Origin: Acidobacteriota bacterium
Lineage (GTDB): Bacteria; Acidobacteriota; Holophagae; Holophagales; Holophagaceae
Length of the DNA: 42,762 nucleotides
Assembly: GCA_021802985.1 (NCBI GenBank)
Contig: JAJZQW010000015.1
Coordinates: 1-42,762, forward strand
Direction of reading: 5' to 3'
Positions 17,257-36,427 of the stretch are shown one piece after another (the first letter of the stretch is position 1; the number at the start of each line of letters is the position of its first letter). The translations under genes and the position numbers were made by a program. The notes under the pieces were generated by a model that was not told the DNA's origin, searched no databases, and saw only the letters and a program-made list of their open reading frames with translations.

Positions 17257-18942
17257 ATGCTCCAGCGTTCCCTCGGGCGTCCAGGCCCAGACGGCTCGGC
17301 CCCACCCTTCCTCCCCCTCAGCTTCCGGCTCTTCGCGAGCTTCGGCCTGCTGGTGCTGCACCTGGCGCTCCCTCAGGAGGGGCGGGCCGTGGGCCCTGGA
17401 GAGGAGATCTACCTGCTGGCGCTGATGTCCCTTCTGGTCGAATCGGCCTGGGAGGCCGGACGCGGCCTCCCGGCCTGGGGCCGGGTGTTTCCGACGCCCT
17501 CCCTGCCCTGGATCCGGTGGAACCTGGCCCTGGATCTCGCCCTCGTCACCCTGGTCATTGCCTATCAGGGGGTGACCCAGGAACGCTTCTCGACGCTCTA
17601 CCTCTTCCCCGTGCTGGCTTCGGCCTTCTACCTGGGCACGGCGGAGATCGTGTGGGTGGGGGTGCTCTCCTCCCTGACTCACATTCTGGTGGTCCTGGGC
17701 TTTGTGCTGGGCGTCCTGCCCGCTTTCGGGGCATCCGGTCTGAACATCGATCTGGAGGCGGGACGGCTGACCTTCGTGCTGGGCCTTGCGTCCGTGCAGA
17801 TCTTCGCAGCCACCCTGGTGGTGGTGCTGATCCGGCGCAATCTGGAGAGCCTCAAGACCGATCTGACGGCCTCTGAGGCGGCGGTCGACGAACTTTCCGC
17901 CCTCCACTACCGGGTGGTGGAATCCATGTCATCCGGCCTCATCACCCTGGACCTGGAGGATCGTGTAACCTCCGCCAACCCGGCGGCCGAAGCGATCCTG
18001 GGGGGCCCGGTCTTCCTTGGCATCCCGGTGCAGGACATCCTTCCGCTGGGGACGCCCCTCCCTGCGCACCTGGGCCGGGAGCACCGGTTCGAACTCACAC
18101 TCCCCACCCTGGACCGGGGCACACGGATCCTTGGTGGCCACCTGGCCTCCCTCCGTGGCGCGGATGACCGCACCACGGGGCATCTCCTGCTTTTCCAGGA
18201 TCTCACCGAGTTGAAGGCGCTCGCGGACCGCACTCGGATCAGCGAGCGCCTGGCCACCGTGGGCCAGCTGGCAGCCGGCCTTGCCCACGAACTGCGCAAC
18301 CCCCTGGCTTCCATCAGTGGCTGCGTCCAGTTGCTGCAGACCTCGGGGCCCGGCCACGACATGAAGGACCGGGTGCTGGGCATCCTCGAACGCGAGACCC
18401 ACCGCGTGAATGGCATCGTCTCAGACTTCCTGGATTTCGCCCATCCGGGGCAGCCTGCGCCCCAGGCGCTGTCGCTTCCGAAGGTCCTGGAGGAGGCGCG
18501 GGGCAGCTGGGAGATGGATCCCCGGACGAAAGGCATTCCCCTGGCCCTGCCCCCGACCCCCGACCTGGGCTTCGAGGCCGACCCCTTGCAGGTTCACCGC
18601 ATCCTCATGAACCTGCTGAGCAACGCGCGGAAGGCGGTTCGGAACACGCCCTCGCCCCAAGTACGCCTGGAAGCGTGGGAGGAGGGCGGCCACCTGTGGA
18701 TCCAGGTCGCGGATAATGGGTGCGGGATGGATCAGGACCAGCTGGACAAGCTCTTCGTGCCCTTCGCGGGGAGCTTTGAGGAGGGTTCAGGCTTGGGCAT
18801 GAGCCTGGTCTACAAACTGACCCAGGACATGGGCTGGCAGCTGCAGGTTCAGAGCCGGCCGGGCAAGGGGACCTCGGTCCAGATCACCCTGCCGGTTTTA
18901 TCTCCCATTCGTCCGGTGGCGCCTGGAGGAGGAAAGGGCTAA
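17257..18942 (+). CDS. Membrane-bound PAS sensor histidine kinase (PilS/NtrB-like)
   Basis: 561 aa. About six membrane segments fill residues 20-200, then a PAS-like domain (VVESMSSGLITLDLEDRV, about 220-320), HisKA (AAGLAHELRNPLASISG, His near 343) and a complete ATPase domain (NLLSNARKAV, ADNGCGMD, GSGLGMSLV). The layout resembles PilS of type IV pilus control. No response regulator is adjacent, so its partner is elsewhere. It is divergent from the Fur-family gene. All catalytic motifs are present, in contrast to the degenerate kinase at 20944. Confidence 0.88.
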   Translation: MLQRSLGRPGPDGSAPPFLPLSFRLFASFGLLVLHLALPQEGRAVGPGEEIYLLALMSLLVESAWEAGRGLPAWGRVFPTPSLPWIRWNLALDLALVTLVIAYQGVTQERFSTLYLFPVLASAFYLGTAEIVWVGVLSSLTHILVVLGFVLGVLPAFGASGLNIDLEAGRLTFVLGLASVQIFAATLVVVLIRRNLESLKTDLTASEAAVDELSALHYRVVESMSSGLITLDLEDRVTSANPAAEAILGGPVFLGIPVQDILPLGTPLPAHLGREHRFELTLPTLDRGTRILGGHLASLRGADDRTTGHLLLFQDLTELKALADRTRISERLATVGQLAAGLAHELRNPLASISGCVQLLQTSGPGHDMKDRVLGILERETHRVNGIVSDFLDFAHPGQPAPQALSLPKVLEEARGSWEMDPRTKGIPLALPPTPDLGFEADPLQVHRILMNLLSNARKAVRNTPSPQVRLEAWEEGGHLWIQVADNGCGMDQDQLDKLFVPFAGSFEEGSGLGMSLVYKLTQDMGWQLQVQSRPGKGTSVQITLPVLSPIRPVAPGGGKG

Positions 18943-19140: not shown

Positions 19141-19623
19141 ATGAATCGCAAGCTCATCCGTCCGAACCTCAGTGAGATCAAGGACAAACTGGGCATCCCC
19201 GCCAAACCGGCCGGGGGGGAGGGGCTCACCCCCACCCCACCTCCCATCACGGCAGGGGGCGAGCCCAATCCCGCCACGAATCCTGCCGCGGCGACGGCAC
19301 CCCAGGGACTGGGAAGCCCCCGGCGGCGGATCGCCCCGCCCGAGCAGACCAACGCCGAAAGTTTCTACTACCTCAAGCAGATGCAGTCGAAGACACCCAT
19401 GGTGATCGTGCTGCAGGACGATGAGAAGGTGCGCGGGGTCATCGAGTGGTACGACAAGCATTGCCTGAAGATCAATCGCCTGAAGGAACCGAACGTCCTG
19501 GTCCCCAAGCACAACATCAAATACATCTACAAACAGGAAGAGGAACCCCGGATCCGCCGGACGCGAACCGCGAAGAAGGAGGAGGTTCCCGTTCCCGAGG
19601 TGGAGATCCCCGTCTACGACTAG
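19141..19623 (+). CDS. hfq: Hfq-like RNA chaperone with long N-terminal extension
   Basis: 160 aa from ATG 19141 (AGGA eight bases upstream); the track start at 19105 has no ribosome site. Residues about 75-140 form an Sm domain: ESFYYLKQMQSKTP, VIVLQDDEKVRGVIEWYD and VPKHNIKYI. The last corresponds to the Hfq Sm2 motif YKHA, with Lys and His kept and Tyr replaced. The rim arginines of E. coli Hfq are not evident. A proline/glycine-rich, probably disordered stretch of about 70 residues precedes the domain and an acidic tail follows. Canonical Hfq starts almost at the Sm domain. It probably binds RNA, but the diverged rim suggests altered behaviour. Confidence 0.8.
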   Translation: MNRKLIRPNLSEIKDKLGIPAKPAGGEGLTPTPPPITAGGEPNPATNPAAATAPQGLGSPRRRIAPPEQTNAESFYYLKQMQSKTPMVIVLQDDEKVRGVIEWYDKHCLKINRLKEPNVLVPKHNIKYIYKQEEEPRIRRTRTAKKEEVPVPEVEIPVYD

Positions 19624-19657: not shown

Positions 19658-20962
19658 ATGAGCCGACGGCCCCGCATCGCCATCTCGCTGGGCGATCCCT
19701 GTGGAATCGGCCCTGAATTGCTGCTGAGATCCCTGGCGATCCTTGCTGGCTGGGCTGAGGTCGTCGTGGTTGGCCCTCGGGCGGGCGTGGACCTGCTCCT
19801 CGACACCCCGGAGAGAACCGTGGACTGGCGTTGGCTTGACGCGCCCAGCCCACCTCCCCCTGGGTTCGAAGGACGCATCTCCGAACTGGAGACCCGCTCG
19901 ATCAAGATGCCGGATGAACCCGCTGGCCGAGCCCTCTGGCTGGATCCGACACCAGAGATTACTGCCGCCGATCTGCGGCTCGGAGAGGGGTCCGCAGCCT
20001 CAGGCTTCGCGACCGTCGAGGCCATCCGCCAGGCCGCGCAGCTGGCGCTCGGTGGCACGGTGGACGCACTGGTCACGCTCCCCATGGCCAAGGCTGCGGC
20101 CCATCTGGCGGGTTACCGCATCCCCGGCCACACGGAGTTCCTCCAGGAGCTATCCAGTTCCCCCCTCACTCGCATGGCCTTCGTGAGCCCCAGCCTTTCC
20201 GTGGTGCTGCACACCGTCCACCAGAGCCTCCGATCCGTGGTCGAGGACCTCGATGCCGAGGCCGTGGCCCAGACCCTCGCCTTCGCTGCCGATCGGTTCA
20301 TCCAGCTCACGGGCAAGCGGGATCTCCGTGTGGCCCTCTGCGCGCTCAACCCCCATGCCGGGGAGAACGGGGCCTTCGGCGACGAGGAGAGCCTCCTCCA
20401 TGAGGCCATGGTGCTGGCCGAAGCCTCTTTCATGGCCATCGGGCGGGATGCCGCAAGCCCCTTCGCCGAGGTGCCCTCCCCCTTTCACGACCTCCCCGAG
20501 GAGGGCGCCGGAGCGTCCTTCCAGGACGAGGCCGGGCTCCACACCGTCGAGATGGCCTCGGCGGGGCTGGAGGTGGTGACCACTGGGCCAGGCACCCACA
20601 AGCCCCACCGCCATGCGCCCCAGTTCTTCGGGCCTTTTCCGTCGGACAGCCTGTTCCACCGGGCTGTCCAGGGAGAGTTCGACCTGGTCGTGGCCCTGTA
20701 CCACGATCAGGGGCTCATTCCCGTGAAGGTGCTGGAGCCGGAGCGCGCCGTCAACCTGACCCTGGGACTCCCCTTCATCCGCACCAGTCCAGACCACGGA
20801 ACCGCCTTCGACAAGGCGGGACGGTGGATCTCTAACCCCACCAATTTCCTCGAAGCCGCGGCCCTGGCCATCCGCCTGGCAGGCCGGGCCCAGCACCAGC
20901 CCTGGAACGCGGAGGTGGCCCGCCTCACACCGGAGAACCCGCCATGGGTTTCGCGGACCTGA
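19658..20962 (+). CDS. pdxA: 4-hydroxythreonine-4-phosphate dehydrogenase PdxA, with insertion
   Basis: 434 aa against about 330 in E. coli. The enzyme makes 3-amino-2-oxopropyl phosphate for pyridoxal phosphate synthesis. SLGDPCGIGPE opens the protein and the three metal-binding histidines are present (PGHTEF, LNPHAGENG, YHDQG), as is LGLPFIRTSPDHGTA. The extra length is mostly about 60 residues between GDEES and GPFPSDS, where family members have some 20. The insertion holds FHDLPEEGAG and THKPHRHAP. GAGGGAG precedes ATG 19658. Overlaps the next gene by 19 bases. Confidence 0.9.
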   Translation: MSRRPRIAISLGDPCGIGPELLLRSLAILAGWAEVVVVGPRAGVDLLLDTPERTVDWRWLDAPSPPPPGFEGRISELETRSIKMPDEPAGRALWLDPTPEITAADLRLGEGSAASGFATVEAIRQAAQLALGGTVDALVTLPMAKAAAHLAGYRIPGHTEFLQELSSSPLTRMAFVSPSLSVVLHTVHQSLRSVVEDLDAEAVAQTLAFAADRFIQLTGKRDLRVALCALNPHAGENGAFGDEESLLHEAMVLAEASFMAIGRDAASPFAEVPSPFHDLPEEGAGASFQDEAGLHTVEMASAGLEVVTTGPGTHKPHRHAPQFFGPFPSDSLFHRAVQGEFDLVVALYHDQGLIPVKVLEPERAVNLTLGLPFIRTSPDHGTAFDKAGRWISNPTNFLEAAALAIRLAGRAQHQPWNAEVARLTPENPPWVSRT

Positions 20963-22932
20963 TCGCCGCACTGCTGCTGCCCCTGCCCCCCTGGGTGGGT
21001 TTCTGGATCTTCCGGCGCAAGGGCCGGGTGGGGCTCAGCTACGGCTACTTCATCGGCGGGATTCTGGCGGCCCTGGCCCTGCCCTGGCCCAGCATCACGG
21101 GACACCCGGTCCCAACGGCCCTGCTCGGCGCCGCTCTCTTCGGTTTCACGCTCTTCCTCCAGGCCCAGCGGGAGGGGGTCCAGGGCCTGCGGCGCCTCGG
21201 CGTGGGCGTCGGCGGGGCCAGTCTCTTCGAGATTCTGCTCCTGGTGCAGCTCGGACTTCCGTGGCGGACCATCCCGCGCTTCTGGGCAGGTGCGGTGTTG
21301 GAGGCCCTGCTCTGGCTGCTCCTGGCGGACCTCGCCCATCGATGGACAAGGGGGCGCCTCCTGGAACTGCGCATGCCCCTGGTAGGGGCCGGGGCCCTGG
21401 GCTTCGGTGCCCTGGCCCAGACGTTCCTGCCGCCGGATACGCCCAGGCTTTCCTGGCCCGCCGCCCTCGTGGGCGGCCTGCTCCTCGGCCTGGTGGCCCT
21501 CCAGCAACTGCGGTGGCTGAGGAGCCAGGGGGCCTGGGTGGAGGGCCGCGGCCAGGGGATCCGCGTGGCCCTGGCCCTGCTGGACCAGAACCCGACCCCG
21601 GAAACCCCGGGGCTCGCTTTCGGGCTGGAACCCCGGCAGGCCCAATGGCTGGTGGATGAAAAGGGCCAGGTGCTGGAATCGAACGGTCCCTTCAGCCGCC
21701 TGGTCGGCCTCCCCCGGCATCGGCTGAGGGGCTATGCCATGGATGCCCTGTTCCAGGGTGGGGAGACCCCGGTGTGGGAGACGCTGCGCGCCCAACTCCT
21801 GCAGCAGGGCCGTGGGGCGGCCCAGGCCACCCAGGTGAGCGAGGACGGGGCCTTCCGCGAGGTGCGGTTGGAGGCCACCGCCTTCGACCGGGGCATGGCC
21901 CTGGTCTGGATCGCCGATCCGACCCCCGGCACCTTGGCCCTCCGGGCGGAGGGCAGTTCACGGCAGCCCCTGACGGGGGAACACGCCCAGCGCCAGGCCC
22001 TCAACGCCCTCGCCGCCCTGCTGCCCTCGGCCGAGCAGGTGCTGGCCGAAACGCCACCAGGACCGGCCCGGGAAGCGGCCATGAGGATCCTGGAAGCGGC
22101 CCGGCGTCTGAGTCCAGAGGCCCCGGCTGCCCCCGCCACCGTCCCTCTGGACGCGGCTGAGGCGATGCGCGTTCTCGACCCCTACCTGCGGAGGATGCTG
22201 CCGGAGGGGACCCCGCTGGCGATCCAGGCCGCCGCCCTCCCGCTGTCCGTGGGACCGGAGGCCCTCAAACGGATGGTAACCCTGCTTCTGCTCCATGCGG
22301 CGGAACACCGGAAAGGCGGCCTCCAGGTCTCGATCGAAGCCGTGGACCTTGGCGGTCGCGCCTGGGGCCTGCTCCAGGTGCGCCCCGACGGTCCGGAGGG
22401 CCGCATGCCCCCGGACCTGCTCGGCCTCGGCTGGCTGCGTGCGGCCGTTGCCGAGGCCCGAGGCCTGCTGGAACTGGAGCAGGGCTTCCGGGGTGGGCTC
22501 CATCCGAAAGTCTACCTCCCCGGTGCGGCCGGGGCCCGGGCCCTTCCCGAACGGCCCCTCGCGGATCGGAGAATCTGGGTGGTGGACCGGGACCCGCTCC
22601 TGCGGGATACCCTGGCTTCGCTCATCCACCACTGGGGCGGCGAACCGGCCACCTTCGAGGACCTGGCAGATCTGCTCAGGGAGAGCCGGGGCACAACCCT
22701 CCCCGATGCACTTGTGCTGGAGCGCACCACACAGTTGGACCGGTTCCAGAGGGCCCTCCGGAGGTTCCAGCGGGAACCCATCCCCACGCTGGTGATGGGT
22801 GAGGGACAGGCCCTCTCCCTGAACCCTTCCAGCCTGGGCTTGAAGCGCCTCGGATTCGTGGAGAAGCCCCTGCCGGGACAGGAATTCGTCCATGCCCTGC
22901 TGGCGCTCCTCCGGCCCCAGCCTGGGGGCTGA
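20944..22932 (+). CDS. Membrane PAS-pseudokinase-pseudoreceiver hybrid protein
   Basis: 662 aa. About seven hydrophobic segments occupy residues 1-195, then a PAS-like domain (VDEKGQVLESNGPFSRLVG, near 235-335). Residues 345-390 align with a hybrid-kinase dimerisation domain but have no His-Asp/Glu box. The ATPase-like part (PLDAAEAMRVLDPYLRRMLP) keeps the fold pattern, yet the N-box reads LLLLHAAEH and the G-boxes are replaced (RPDGPEGRM). The receiver-like end (WVVDRDPLLRDT, VEKPLPG) keeps the acidic pair and lysine, but the phospho-acceptor position reads LVLERT, Glu for Asp. Overlaps pdxA by 19 bases and lies 49 bp before glmU. Probably a non-catalytic sensor or scaffold. Confidence 0.75.
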   Translation: MGFADLIAALLLPLPPWVGFWIFRRKGRVGLSYGYFIGGILAALALPWPSITGHPVPTALLGAALFGFTLFLQAQREGVQGLRRLGVGVGGASLFEILLLVQLGLPWRTIPRFWAGAVLEALLWLLLADLAHRWTRGRLLELRMPLVGAGALGFGALAQTFLPPDTPRLSWPAALVGGLLLGLVALQQLRWLRSQGAWVEGRGQGIRVALALLDQNPTPETPGLAFGLEPRQAQWLVDEKGQVLESNGPFSRLVGLPRHRLRGYAMDALFQGGETPVWETLRAQLLQQGRGAAQATQVSEDGAFREVRLEATAFDRGMALVWIADPTPGTLALRAEGSSRQPLTGEHAQRQALNALAALLPSAEQVLAETPPGPAREAAMRILEAARRLSPEAPAAPATVPLDAAEAMRVLDPYLRRMLPEGTPLAIQAAALPLSVGPEALKRMVTLLLLHAAEHRKGGLQVSIEAVDLGGRAWGLLQVRPDGPEGRMPPDLLGLGWLRAAVAEARGLLELEQGFRGGLHPKVYLPGAAGARALPERPLADRRIWVVDRDPLLRDTLASLIHHWGGEPATFEDLADLLRESRGTTLPDALVLERTTQLDRFQRALRRFQREPIPTLVMGEGQALSLNPSSLGLKRLGFVEKPLPGQEFVHALLALLRPQPGG

Positions 22933-22981: not shown

Positions 22982-24379
22982 ATGTCGACGGTGGCAGTGA
23001 TCCTGGCGGCGGGACTCGGAACCCGCATGAAGTCGCGCCTTCCGAAGGTGCTGCATCCGATCCTGGGCGATGCTTCCCTGCTGTGGGTGCTGCGGACCCT
23101 CCCGCGGGACCTCGGAGCTGCCCTGGTCGTGGTGCATCACGGCAAGGAGCAGGTGCTGGCCGCCCTCGAAGGCTGGAAGGCGCAGGGCCTTCTTCCCTGT
23201 CCCGTGATTGCGGTGGATCAGGGTGAGCCCCTTGGCACGGGGCATGCCCTTCAGGTCTGCATTCCCGAGTTGGACCGGCTGGGCGCCAGCCGGGTGGTGA
23301 TCCTCTGTGGCGACGTTCCCCTGACCCCACCGGCCACCGTGGCGCGCCTTTGCGCCGCCGAGGCCCTTCTCCTGGCCATGGACCTGGAGGAGCCGGGAAG
23401 CTACGGCCGGGTCATCCAGCAGGCCGATGGCCGGCTGGCGGGTCTGGTGGAAGCCAAGGATGCGACCCCGGAGCAGCGGGCAGTCCACCGGGTGAACGGC
23501 GGCGCCTACGCCCTGCCCTGGAATGCCCTCCGGAAAGCCCTCCAGAACCTCACCAACGACAATGCCCAGAAGGAGTTCTACCTCACGGACGCCGTGGCCG
23601 CCGTGGCCCGCGACCAGGCCGTGGCCGTGGAGGTTTGCGCCCCGGAAGATCTCGCCGGCATGAACTCGCGTCTGGACCAATCGGCCCTGCAGACCGCGGC
23701 CCGGCAGCGGATCAACGCAGCGTGGATGACCGAGGGCGTCACGTTCCTCCACGCCGACAGCACGCTGGTGGGCCCCCGTGTGAGCCTGGGCCGGGACGTG
23801 GTCCTGGAGCCCTCCATCCGGCTGGAGGGAACGGTCACCGTGGGCGACGGCTGCTGCGTGGGCCAGGGCACCGTGATCACGGATTCGGTCCTCGCTGAAG
23901 ACGTGGAAATCCGTCCCTATTGCGTGGTGGATCGGGCCAAGGTGGGCCCCGGATCCAAGCTCGGCCCCTTCGCCCGGCTGCGCGAAGGGACCGATCTGGA
24001 TGGGGGTGTCCACATCGGCAACTTCGTGGAGACCAAGAAGGCACGCATGCACAAAGGGGCCAAGGCGAACCACCTCGCCTACCTGGGCGATACTGAAATC
24101 GGCGCAGGAACCAACATCGGCGCGGGCGTGATCACCTGCAATTACGACGGCGTGAACAAGCACCGGACCCTCATCGGCCGGAACGTCTTCGTCGGATCTG
24201 ACACCCAACTGGTCGCTCCGGTGACCATCGGCGATGGGGCCCTCATCGGTGCCGGCAGCACCATCACCAAGGACGTTCCCGCCGATGCCCTGGCCCTGAG
24301 CCGCGTGCCCCAGACTTTGCGCGAGGGGGGGGCGACCACCCTTCGCAGCCGGCAGAAGAAGTCGACTGGGTTAAGCTAG
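22982..24379 (+). CDS. glmU: Bifunctional GlcNAc-1-P uridyltransferase/GlcN-1-P acetyltransferase
   Basis: 465 aa, normal length. The N-terminal pyrophosphorylase domain shows ILAAGLGTRMKSRLPKVLHP and GDVPL; the C-terminal left-handed beta-helix shows NFVETKKA, YLGDTEIGAGTNIGAG and NYDGVNKH. The enzyme makes UDP-GlcNAc for peptidoglycan and LPS. Start is ATG 22982 with GGAG just upstream; the track start at 22892 reads back into the preceding gene. Downstream mlaE follows after 22 bp. Confidence 0.96.
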   Translation: MSTVAVILAAGLGTRMKSRLPKVLHPILGDASLLWVLRTLPRDLGAALVVVHHGKEQVLAALEGWKAQGLLPCPVIAVDQGEPLGTGHALQVCIPELDRLGASRVVILCGDVPLTPPATVARLCAAEALLLAMDLEEPGSYGRVIQQADGRLAGLVEAKDATPEQRAVHRVNGGAYALPWNALRKALQNLTNDNAQKEFYLTDAVAAVARDQAVAVEVCAPEDLAGMNSRLDQSALQTAARQRINAAWMTEGVTFLHADSTLVGPRVSLGRDVVLEPSIRLEGTVTVGDGCCVGQGTVITDSVLAEDVEIRPYCVVDRAKVGPGSKLGPFARLREGTDLDGGVHIGNFVETKKARMHKGAKANHLAYLGDTEIGAGTNIGAGVITCNYDGVNKHRTLIGRNVFVGSDTQLVAPVTIGDGALIGAGSTITKDVPADALALSRVPQTLREGGATTLRSRQKKSTGLS

Positions 24380-36028: not shown

Positions 36029-36427
36029 ATGTCCAACCGCATCCTCCTGGTGGAAGACGACCCCATCAACGTCCGCTTCATCCAGGTCGTCCTTGCCAAG
36101 AAGGGGGGCTTCGAGGTGCTGGTTTCCGAGGATGTGGAGGAGATTCTCCGCATTGCTCACGAGACCGATCTGGCCGCGATCATGATGGACGTGAGCCTCT
36201 CGCGCTCCAGCTACCAGGGCCAGAAGGTCGATGGCATCTTCATCACCCAGCTGCTCAAGCAGGATCCCCTGACGAAGCACATCCCCGTGCTGCTGGCCAC
36301 GGCCCACGCCATGTTCGGGGACCGGGAGAAGTATCTCGAACTGACCGGCGCGGAGGGGTATATCGCCAAGCCCATCCACGATCCCGCCGCCCTGGTGGAC
36401 GCCATCCGCGCGATCATCCGGCCCTGA
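36029..36427 (+). CDS. Single-domain response regulator
   Basis: 132 aa receiver domain alone, DivK/CheY-like. The acidic pocket (VEDDP), phospho-acceptor Asp (IMMDVSLS), Thr (LLATAHA) and Lys (IAKPI) are all present, so it should be phosphorylated. Its kinase is not adjacent; the orphan PAS kinase at 17257 is one possibility. Starts 57 bp after the PHP gene and ends two bases before truA. Confidence 0.9.
   Translation: MSNRILLVEDDPINVRFIQVVLAKKGGFEVLVSEDVEEILRIAHETDLAAIMMDVSLSRSSYQGQKVDGIFITQLLKQDPLTKHIPVLLATAHAMFGDREKYLELTGAEGYIAKPIHDPAALVDAIRAIIRP

Follow-up and report, generated by a model that had tools for sequence, protein, structure and literature searches.

What can a protein do that has the folds of both a histidine kinase and a receiver domain and the phosphotransfer chemistry of neither? 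The question is raised by an open reading frame, here called X (20944..22932, + strand, 662 amino acids), which lies between pdxA and glmU in the stretch of 42,762 nucleotides analyzed here (the window), part of a 72%-complete draft genome from the genus that holds the Geothrix species (Geothrix lineage, Holophagaceae). An earlier note on this DNA had described X as a membrane hybrid kinase that appears to have lost all of its phosphotransfer chemistry and kept its fold, and orthologs, a predicted structure, and tests for selection all support this description. According to a review, the phosphorylation site has been lost from 0.9% of HisKA domains and from 2.0% of receivers (PMC12632262), and the same review calls the switching mechanisms of bacterial pseudo-receivers a mystery. 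In X, both modules are dead in every ortholog examined across five genera, including named strains such as Geothrix fermentans DSM 14018. Together with natural relatives that do not carry the gene, X offers a direct test of how two-component folds signal without phosphate, and it adds a membrane sensor domain that has not been described.

Domain architecture of X

The open reading frame and its coordinates were confirmed in the window sequence; the ATG at 20944 is preceded by a Shine–Dalgarno-like GGAG motif (20932..20935), and the start occupies the same position as in many orthologs. An AlphaFold2 model built from 28 orthologs (mean pLDDT 77) predicts, from the N-terminus, membrane helices, a PAS domain, a helix pair, a Bergerat-like domain, and a (beta-alpha) receiver fold, all encoded on the + strand. 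The membrane domain (residues 1–200; 21543 is its last nucleotide and 20944 its first) has about seven predicted helices (residues 1–194; pLDDT 85, pTM 0.84) and is followed by the PAS domain (residues 232–325; 21637..21918), which is recognized by Pfam in orthologs and by its predicted fold. A DHp-like helix pair without a phosphorylatable His (residues 346–389; 21979..22110) was placed by the model and by profile alignment; Foldseek additionally identified the degenerate Bergerat-like HATPase domain with a shortened ATP lid (residues 404–527; 22153..22524), and the pseudo-receiver (residues 541–660; 22564..22923) is recognized by profile matches and by its predicted fold.

The PAS-DHp-HATPase-receiver order proposed in the earlier note is thus the one on which the model, Foldseek, and profile searches agree. 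The family profile of X matches receivers (1yio, E 2.6e-6; FixJ, 5.7e-6; NtrC, 1.3e-3); a weak match was also obtained to the terminal part of the EnvZ ATPase domain (E 0.11). Against the PDB, the best Foldseek match of the model is full-length ShkA (2.4e-10), together with LOV histidine kinases, and lower down NifL–NifA (9qq6, 1.7e-8) and EnvZ are found; whole-chain TM-scores are low, presumably because the domain orientation is unresolved. The window protein alone has no Pfam match that passes the cut-off, and Pfam and NCBIfam gave weak fragments only. With E<=0.01 as the threshold, Pfam PAS matches 21 of 28 orthologs (window protein 0.041, not passing), and Response_reg (PF00072) matches three of 28 at the same threshold, the window protein not among them.

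The membrane domain is the most conserved part of X and is confined to the X family. Nothing in Pfam matched it convincingly, nor did any PDB sequence match, and Foldseek gave no match at E<=0.001. The matches to DUF7502 are weak (best 0.0049; window protein 0.15, below the cut-off) and were judged to be due to chance.

Catalytic residues lost and retained

Residues were counted in 32 distinct aligned orthologs (the window protein and 31 relatives) from five genera, and the lost boxes were located by profile alignment with the adjacent PAS-HisKA-HATPase sensor kinase (17257..18942, + strand), in which the H, N, G1, and G2 boxes are intact and conserved. The domains of the two proteins line up in the same sequence, but the score is weak (E 0.01, probability 4%), so the comparison was used only to place residues. 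In the H-box, Arg350 of X aligns with His344 (HELRNP) of the active kinase; the column contains Arg in 22 orthologs, other non-His residues in six, and a gap in four, so that none of the 28 ungapped orthologs has His. A trace of the box persists at R350–N354 (21991..22005, + strand), where Asn354 falls on the HELRNP Asn and is kept in 26 of the 28. The N-box reads LLLLHAAEH, with His451 (22294..22296, + strand) at the Asn position in 32/32 orthologs. The absence of an H-box and of the N-box Asn had been described in the earlier note, as had replacement of the G-boxes. The latter holds for G1, where the corresponding stretch is unconserved among orthologs, and only in part for G2, where GLG remains as G494-L495-G496 (G494 in 32/32) and the ATP lid is shortened.

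In the receiver, the phosphoacceptor Asp is replaced by Glu593 (22720..22722, + strand; PDALVLERT), which is invariant together with Arg594 (both 32/32), and the conserved Lys641 (22864..22866, + strand) is kept in 30 of 32; the Glu and the Lys had both been described in the earlier note. The acidic pair had also been said to remain, and here the ortholog counts contradict the earlier note. The pair corresponds to Asp548-Arg549; its first position is Asp in 24 orthologs, Glu in four, and His in four, and its second, Mg-binding position is acidic in 0/32 (Gln in 15, Arg in 12, Gly in two, and Ser, His, and Pro in one each). The acid that does not vary is Asp550, which directly follows the pair. 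The Thr/Ser position is occupied by Gly (28 orthologs) or Asp (four). The earlier note had pointed out that an Asp-to-Glu change can mimic phosphorylation. Glu is commonly found in place of the receiver Asp in plant pseudo-response regulators and in the pseudo-receivers of fungal Rim15p; for some pseudo-receivers, the phosphomimetic idea is reported to have been disproved by replacing that residue (PMC12632262). For X, the idea is possible but weak, given that neither the Thr/Ser nor the second acid has been kept.

Four orthologs from genus g23 (L099, L100, L101, and L102) are without the DHp-like helices, so that almost nothing separates their PAS domain from the HATPase-like part; two of the four have also lost the receiver Lys. 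In a further ortholog (L103, 1478-4117, - strand), an additional C-terminal tail extends past the receiver domain.

Orthologs with an intact H-box, N-box, and receiver Asp, which would have spoken against the earlier note, were sought in the genus, family, and class genomes, in the genome_contigs collection, and with the membrane domain alone in 396 genomes of the phylum; none was found, and the same losses are present in each ortholog for which the residues were read. Nor did the structure model lack the HATPase or receiver fold, the other outcome that would have contradicted the note. Across these sequences, the catalytic losses are a fixed trait of the family. Since the residues that define an active hybrid histidine kinase were looked for and not found, X is not one; with histidine kinase homology and without the residues for autophosphorylation, it is by sequence a pseudo-histidine kinase.

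Selection on X

Pairwise dN/dS is below 1 in all domains of X and in every pair tested. It is lowest in the membrane domain (~0.07–0.13), PAS (~0.04–0.2), and receiver (~0.06–0.27), and reaches higher values in the HATPase-like part (~0.11–0.35) and the DHp-like part (0 to ~0.41). Mean pairwise identity ranks the domains in the same way as this constraint (membrane 0.68, PAS 0.62, receiver 0.54, HATPase-like 0.44, and DHp-like 0.37). Both measures indicate that the sensing and pseudo-receiver parts of X are held, whereas the dead catalytic core drifts more. The low dN/dS and the invariant residues rule out that X is a pseudogene.

Distribution and gene order

Orthologs of X were found in 23 of 47 genomes of the genus and 35 of 77 genomes of the family, representing five genera, and in none of 16 genomes of the class outside Holophagaceae. 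A search with the membrane domain recovered only the same protein, one per genome, in 24 of 396 genomes of the phylum, and no plasmid copies were found. Because X was not found in 42 of the 77 family genomes (some of them incomplete), its function is dispensable. On a tree of GlmU and PdxA, the presence of X requires 11 changes, and branches with good support force at least seven of them. Some early-branching lineages of this tree have X, which may reflect early presence followed by repeated loss; the root of the tree lies on a long branch.

Where enough flanking sequence is available, the ortholog loci read Hfq-PdxA-(PabC)-X-GlmU-MlaE-MlaF, and in most of them the sensor kinase precedes this series. 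In the X-less relatives whose loci were read, the other genes keep this order, and no remnant of X was detected at E 1e-3. The position of X is thus conserved, adjacency to glmU included, but many relatives with the same order do not have X. In the window, the start of X (20944) lies inside the end of pdxA (19658..20962, + strand), and glmU (22982..24379, + strand) comes next. The 19-bp overlap with pdxA, from which co-translation had been inferred, was seen in the window and in none of the relatives examined. In most of these relatives, including the two nearest (L043, 1544-2248; L044, 5281-5973), a gene for a PabC-like class IV aminotransferase sits between pdxA and X. This gene is missing between pdxA and X in the window, which accounts for the overlap, and the rest of the 72%-complete genome contains only a weak match to it (31%). 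The PabC-like gene is also missing at the same place in several other lineages, both with and without X. The Hfq-like protein of the window (19141..19623) has about 160 amino acids, of which only a short central stretch is the Hfq core (Pfam Hfq_1, residues 81–129), with long extensions around it.

Relation to known pseudokinases and pseudo-receivers

Neither DivL nor NifL is known to have a receiver domain, and NifL is soluble, unlike X. NifL nevertheless resembles X in that it carries a PAS sensor on a kinase-like core and controls its partner by binding, in keeping with the fold match to 9qq6. In DivL, according to two reports, a repurposed kinase fold regulates a partner instead of phosphorylating it (PMC4211667; PMC5361649); X differs in being without receiver chemistry as well, and its membrane domain is unrelated to DivL. 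ShkA, the top Foldseek match, is a Caulobacter hybrid kinase in which a pseudo-receiver binds and blocks its own HisKA domain (PMC12632262). Both proteins join a kinase core to a pseudo-receiver, but ShkA has an active kinase, an active second receiver, and a pseudo-receiver that binds c-di-GMP, whereas X has no active domain and has a membrane domain. The plant pseudo-response regulators and Rim15p share with X the Glu at the Asp position and have another architecture, not within a hybrid kinase. A precedent for a dead kinase acting through a live one is the C. glutamicum pseudokinase ChrS-CA-fs, which is catalytically dead and promotes signaling via the active paralogous kinase HrrS; heterodimers of the native ChrS and HrrS kinases have also been seen (PMC9491836). 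ChrS-CA-fs is a laboratory-evolved frameshift variant, whereas the X family arose in nature and is both old and conserved. Pseudo-histidine kinases and pseudo-receivers are thus both known kinds of protein, and the membrane domain of X is undescribed. To our knowledge, the joining of the two as in X is a new combination.

Proposed mode of signaling

X has a defined architecture, a family-wide loss of catalytic residues, a record of purifying selection, and a fixed position in the gene order. A signaling scaffold or sensor, as the earlier note had concluded, is the best reading of these properties. More specifically, we favor, with some reservation, the view that X derives from a hybrid histidine kinase and is now a membrane receptor, dead for phosphotransfer, that signals through binding of its pseudo-receiver to a partner. 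Phosphotransfer would have been lost in an ancestor of X before the sampled genera diverged. Input would be sensed by the conserved membrane domain, the PAS domain, or both, and a conformational change would reach the pseudo-receiver by way of the helix pair and the HATPase-like module, both of which have been kept. The pseudo-receiver, fixed in one state by Glu593-Arg594 and Lys641, would serve as a binding module that modulates its partner and takes no phosphate; Glu593 may lock an active-like state. X thus probably signals by shape and binding alone. Against this view weigh the dispensability of X, the failure of the window protein to pass any Pfam cut-off, the low whole-chain TM-scores, and the outcome of the search for co-varying residues described below. 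A bolder version, which we regard as tentative and rather doubtful, is that X represents a class of phosphotransfer-free receptors in which a membrane sensor restricted to Holophagaceae drives a kinase-receiver chain turned into a purely conformational switch, with the fixed His451, Asp550, and Glu593-Arg594 in place of catalysis and the partner encoded in the same conserved locus.

Other explanations have to be weighed against the receptor model. It is unlikely that X senses a state related to the cell wall or to vitamin B6 and binds GlmU, PdxA, or the Mla transporter so as to regulate them directly, even though at every ortholog locus with enough flank, in five genera, X is immediately followed by glmU and preceded by pdxA or the PabC-like gene, with gaps short enough that co-transcription would be possible. 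The X-less relatives keep the same gene order, the overlap with pdxA was seen only in the window, a PabC gene mostly lies in between, and PdxA, GlmU, and Hfq have no significant co-varying residues. As X is missing from many relatives with an unchanged pdxA-(pabC)-glmU order, it is not needed for the synthesis of PLP or cell-wall precursors; the tie to these pathways proposed in the earlier note is not supported, and a dedicated role there is possible but not indicated.

The at least seven forced gain or loss changes on the tree, the missing DHp-like helices in the four g23 orthologs, and a dN/dS of ~0.34 for the HATPase-like part between the window and its nearest relative would all fit a relic that is being lost and does no more than fill a weak membrane or structural role. 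Such a relic is nonetheless quite improbable, with dN/dS well below 1 in all domains and every pair tested, invariant residues that persist in orthologs down to ~47% identity with the window protein, and no internal stops in matches covering most of X. The strictness of this invariance, which for His451 and Glu593-Arg594 exceeds what a passive scaffold strictly needs, could instead be taken to mean that a different site for a nucleotide or metal, or a different phosphorylation, depends on His451 or on some other residue. Against this, G1 is unconserved, the lid is shortened, and the second receiver acid is lost, and no family is known to us in which His serves in place of the N-box Asn; we consider such chemistry very unlikely.

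Under the receptor model, the partner of X could be another sensor kinase, for example the intact kinase that shares its conserved locus (17257..18942), which is a candidate by virtue of its position. Residues that track the presence of X in this kinase, Hfq, PdxA, and GlmU were searched for in an underpowered comparison with many columns screened, and none was significant, the best being kinase column 205 (r 0.70; three of six independent pairs, p 0.25). The sensor kinase precedes hfq-pdxA in nearly all family loci read, and no response regulator gene was recognized beside it in the window. A stand-alone receiver-domain protein (Pfam Response_reg, 7.5e-16) is encoded at 36029..36427, distant from X.
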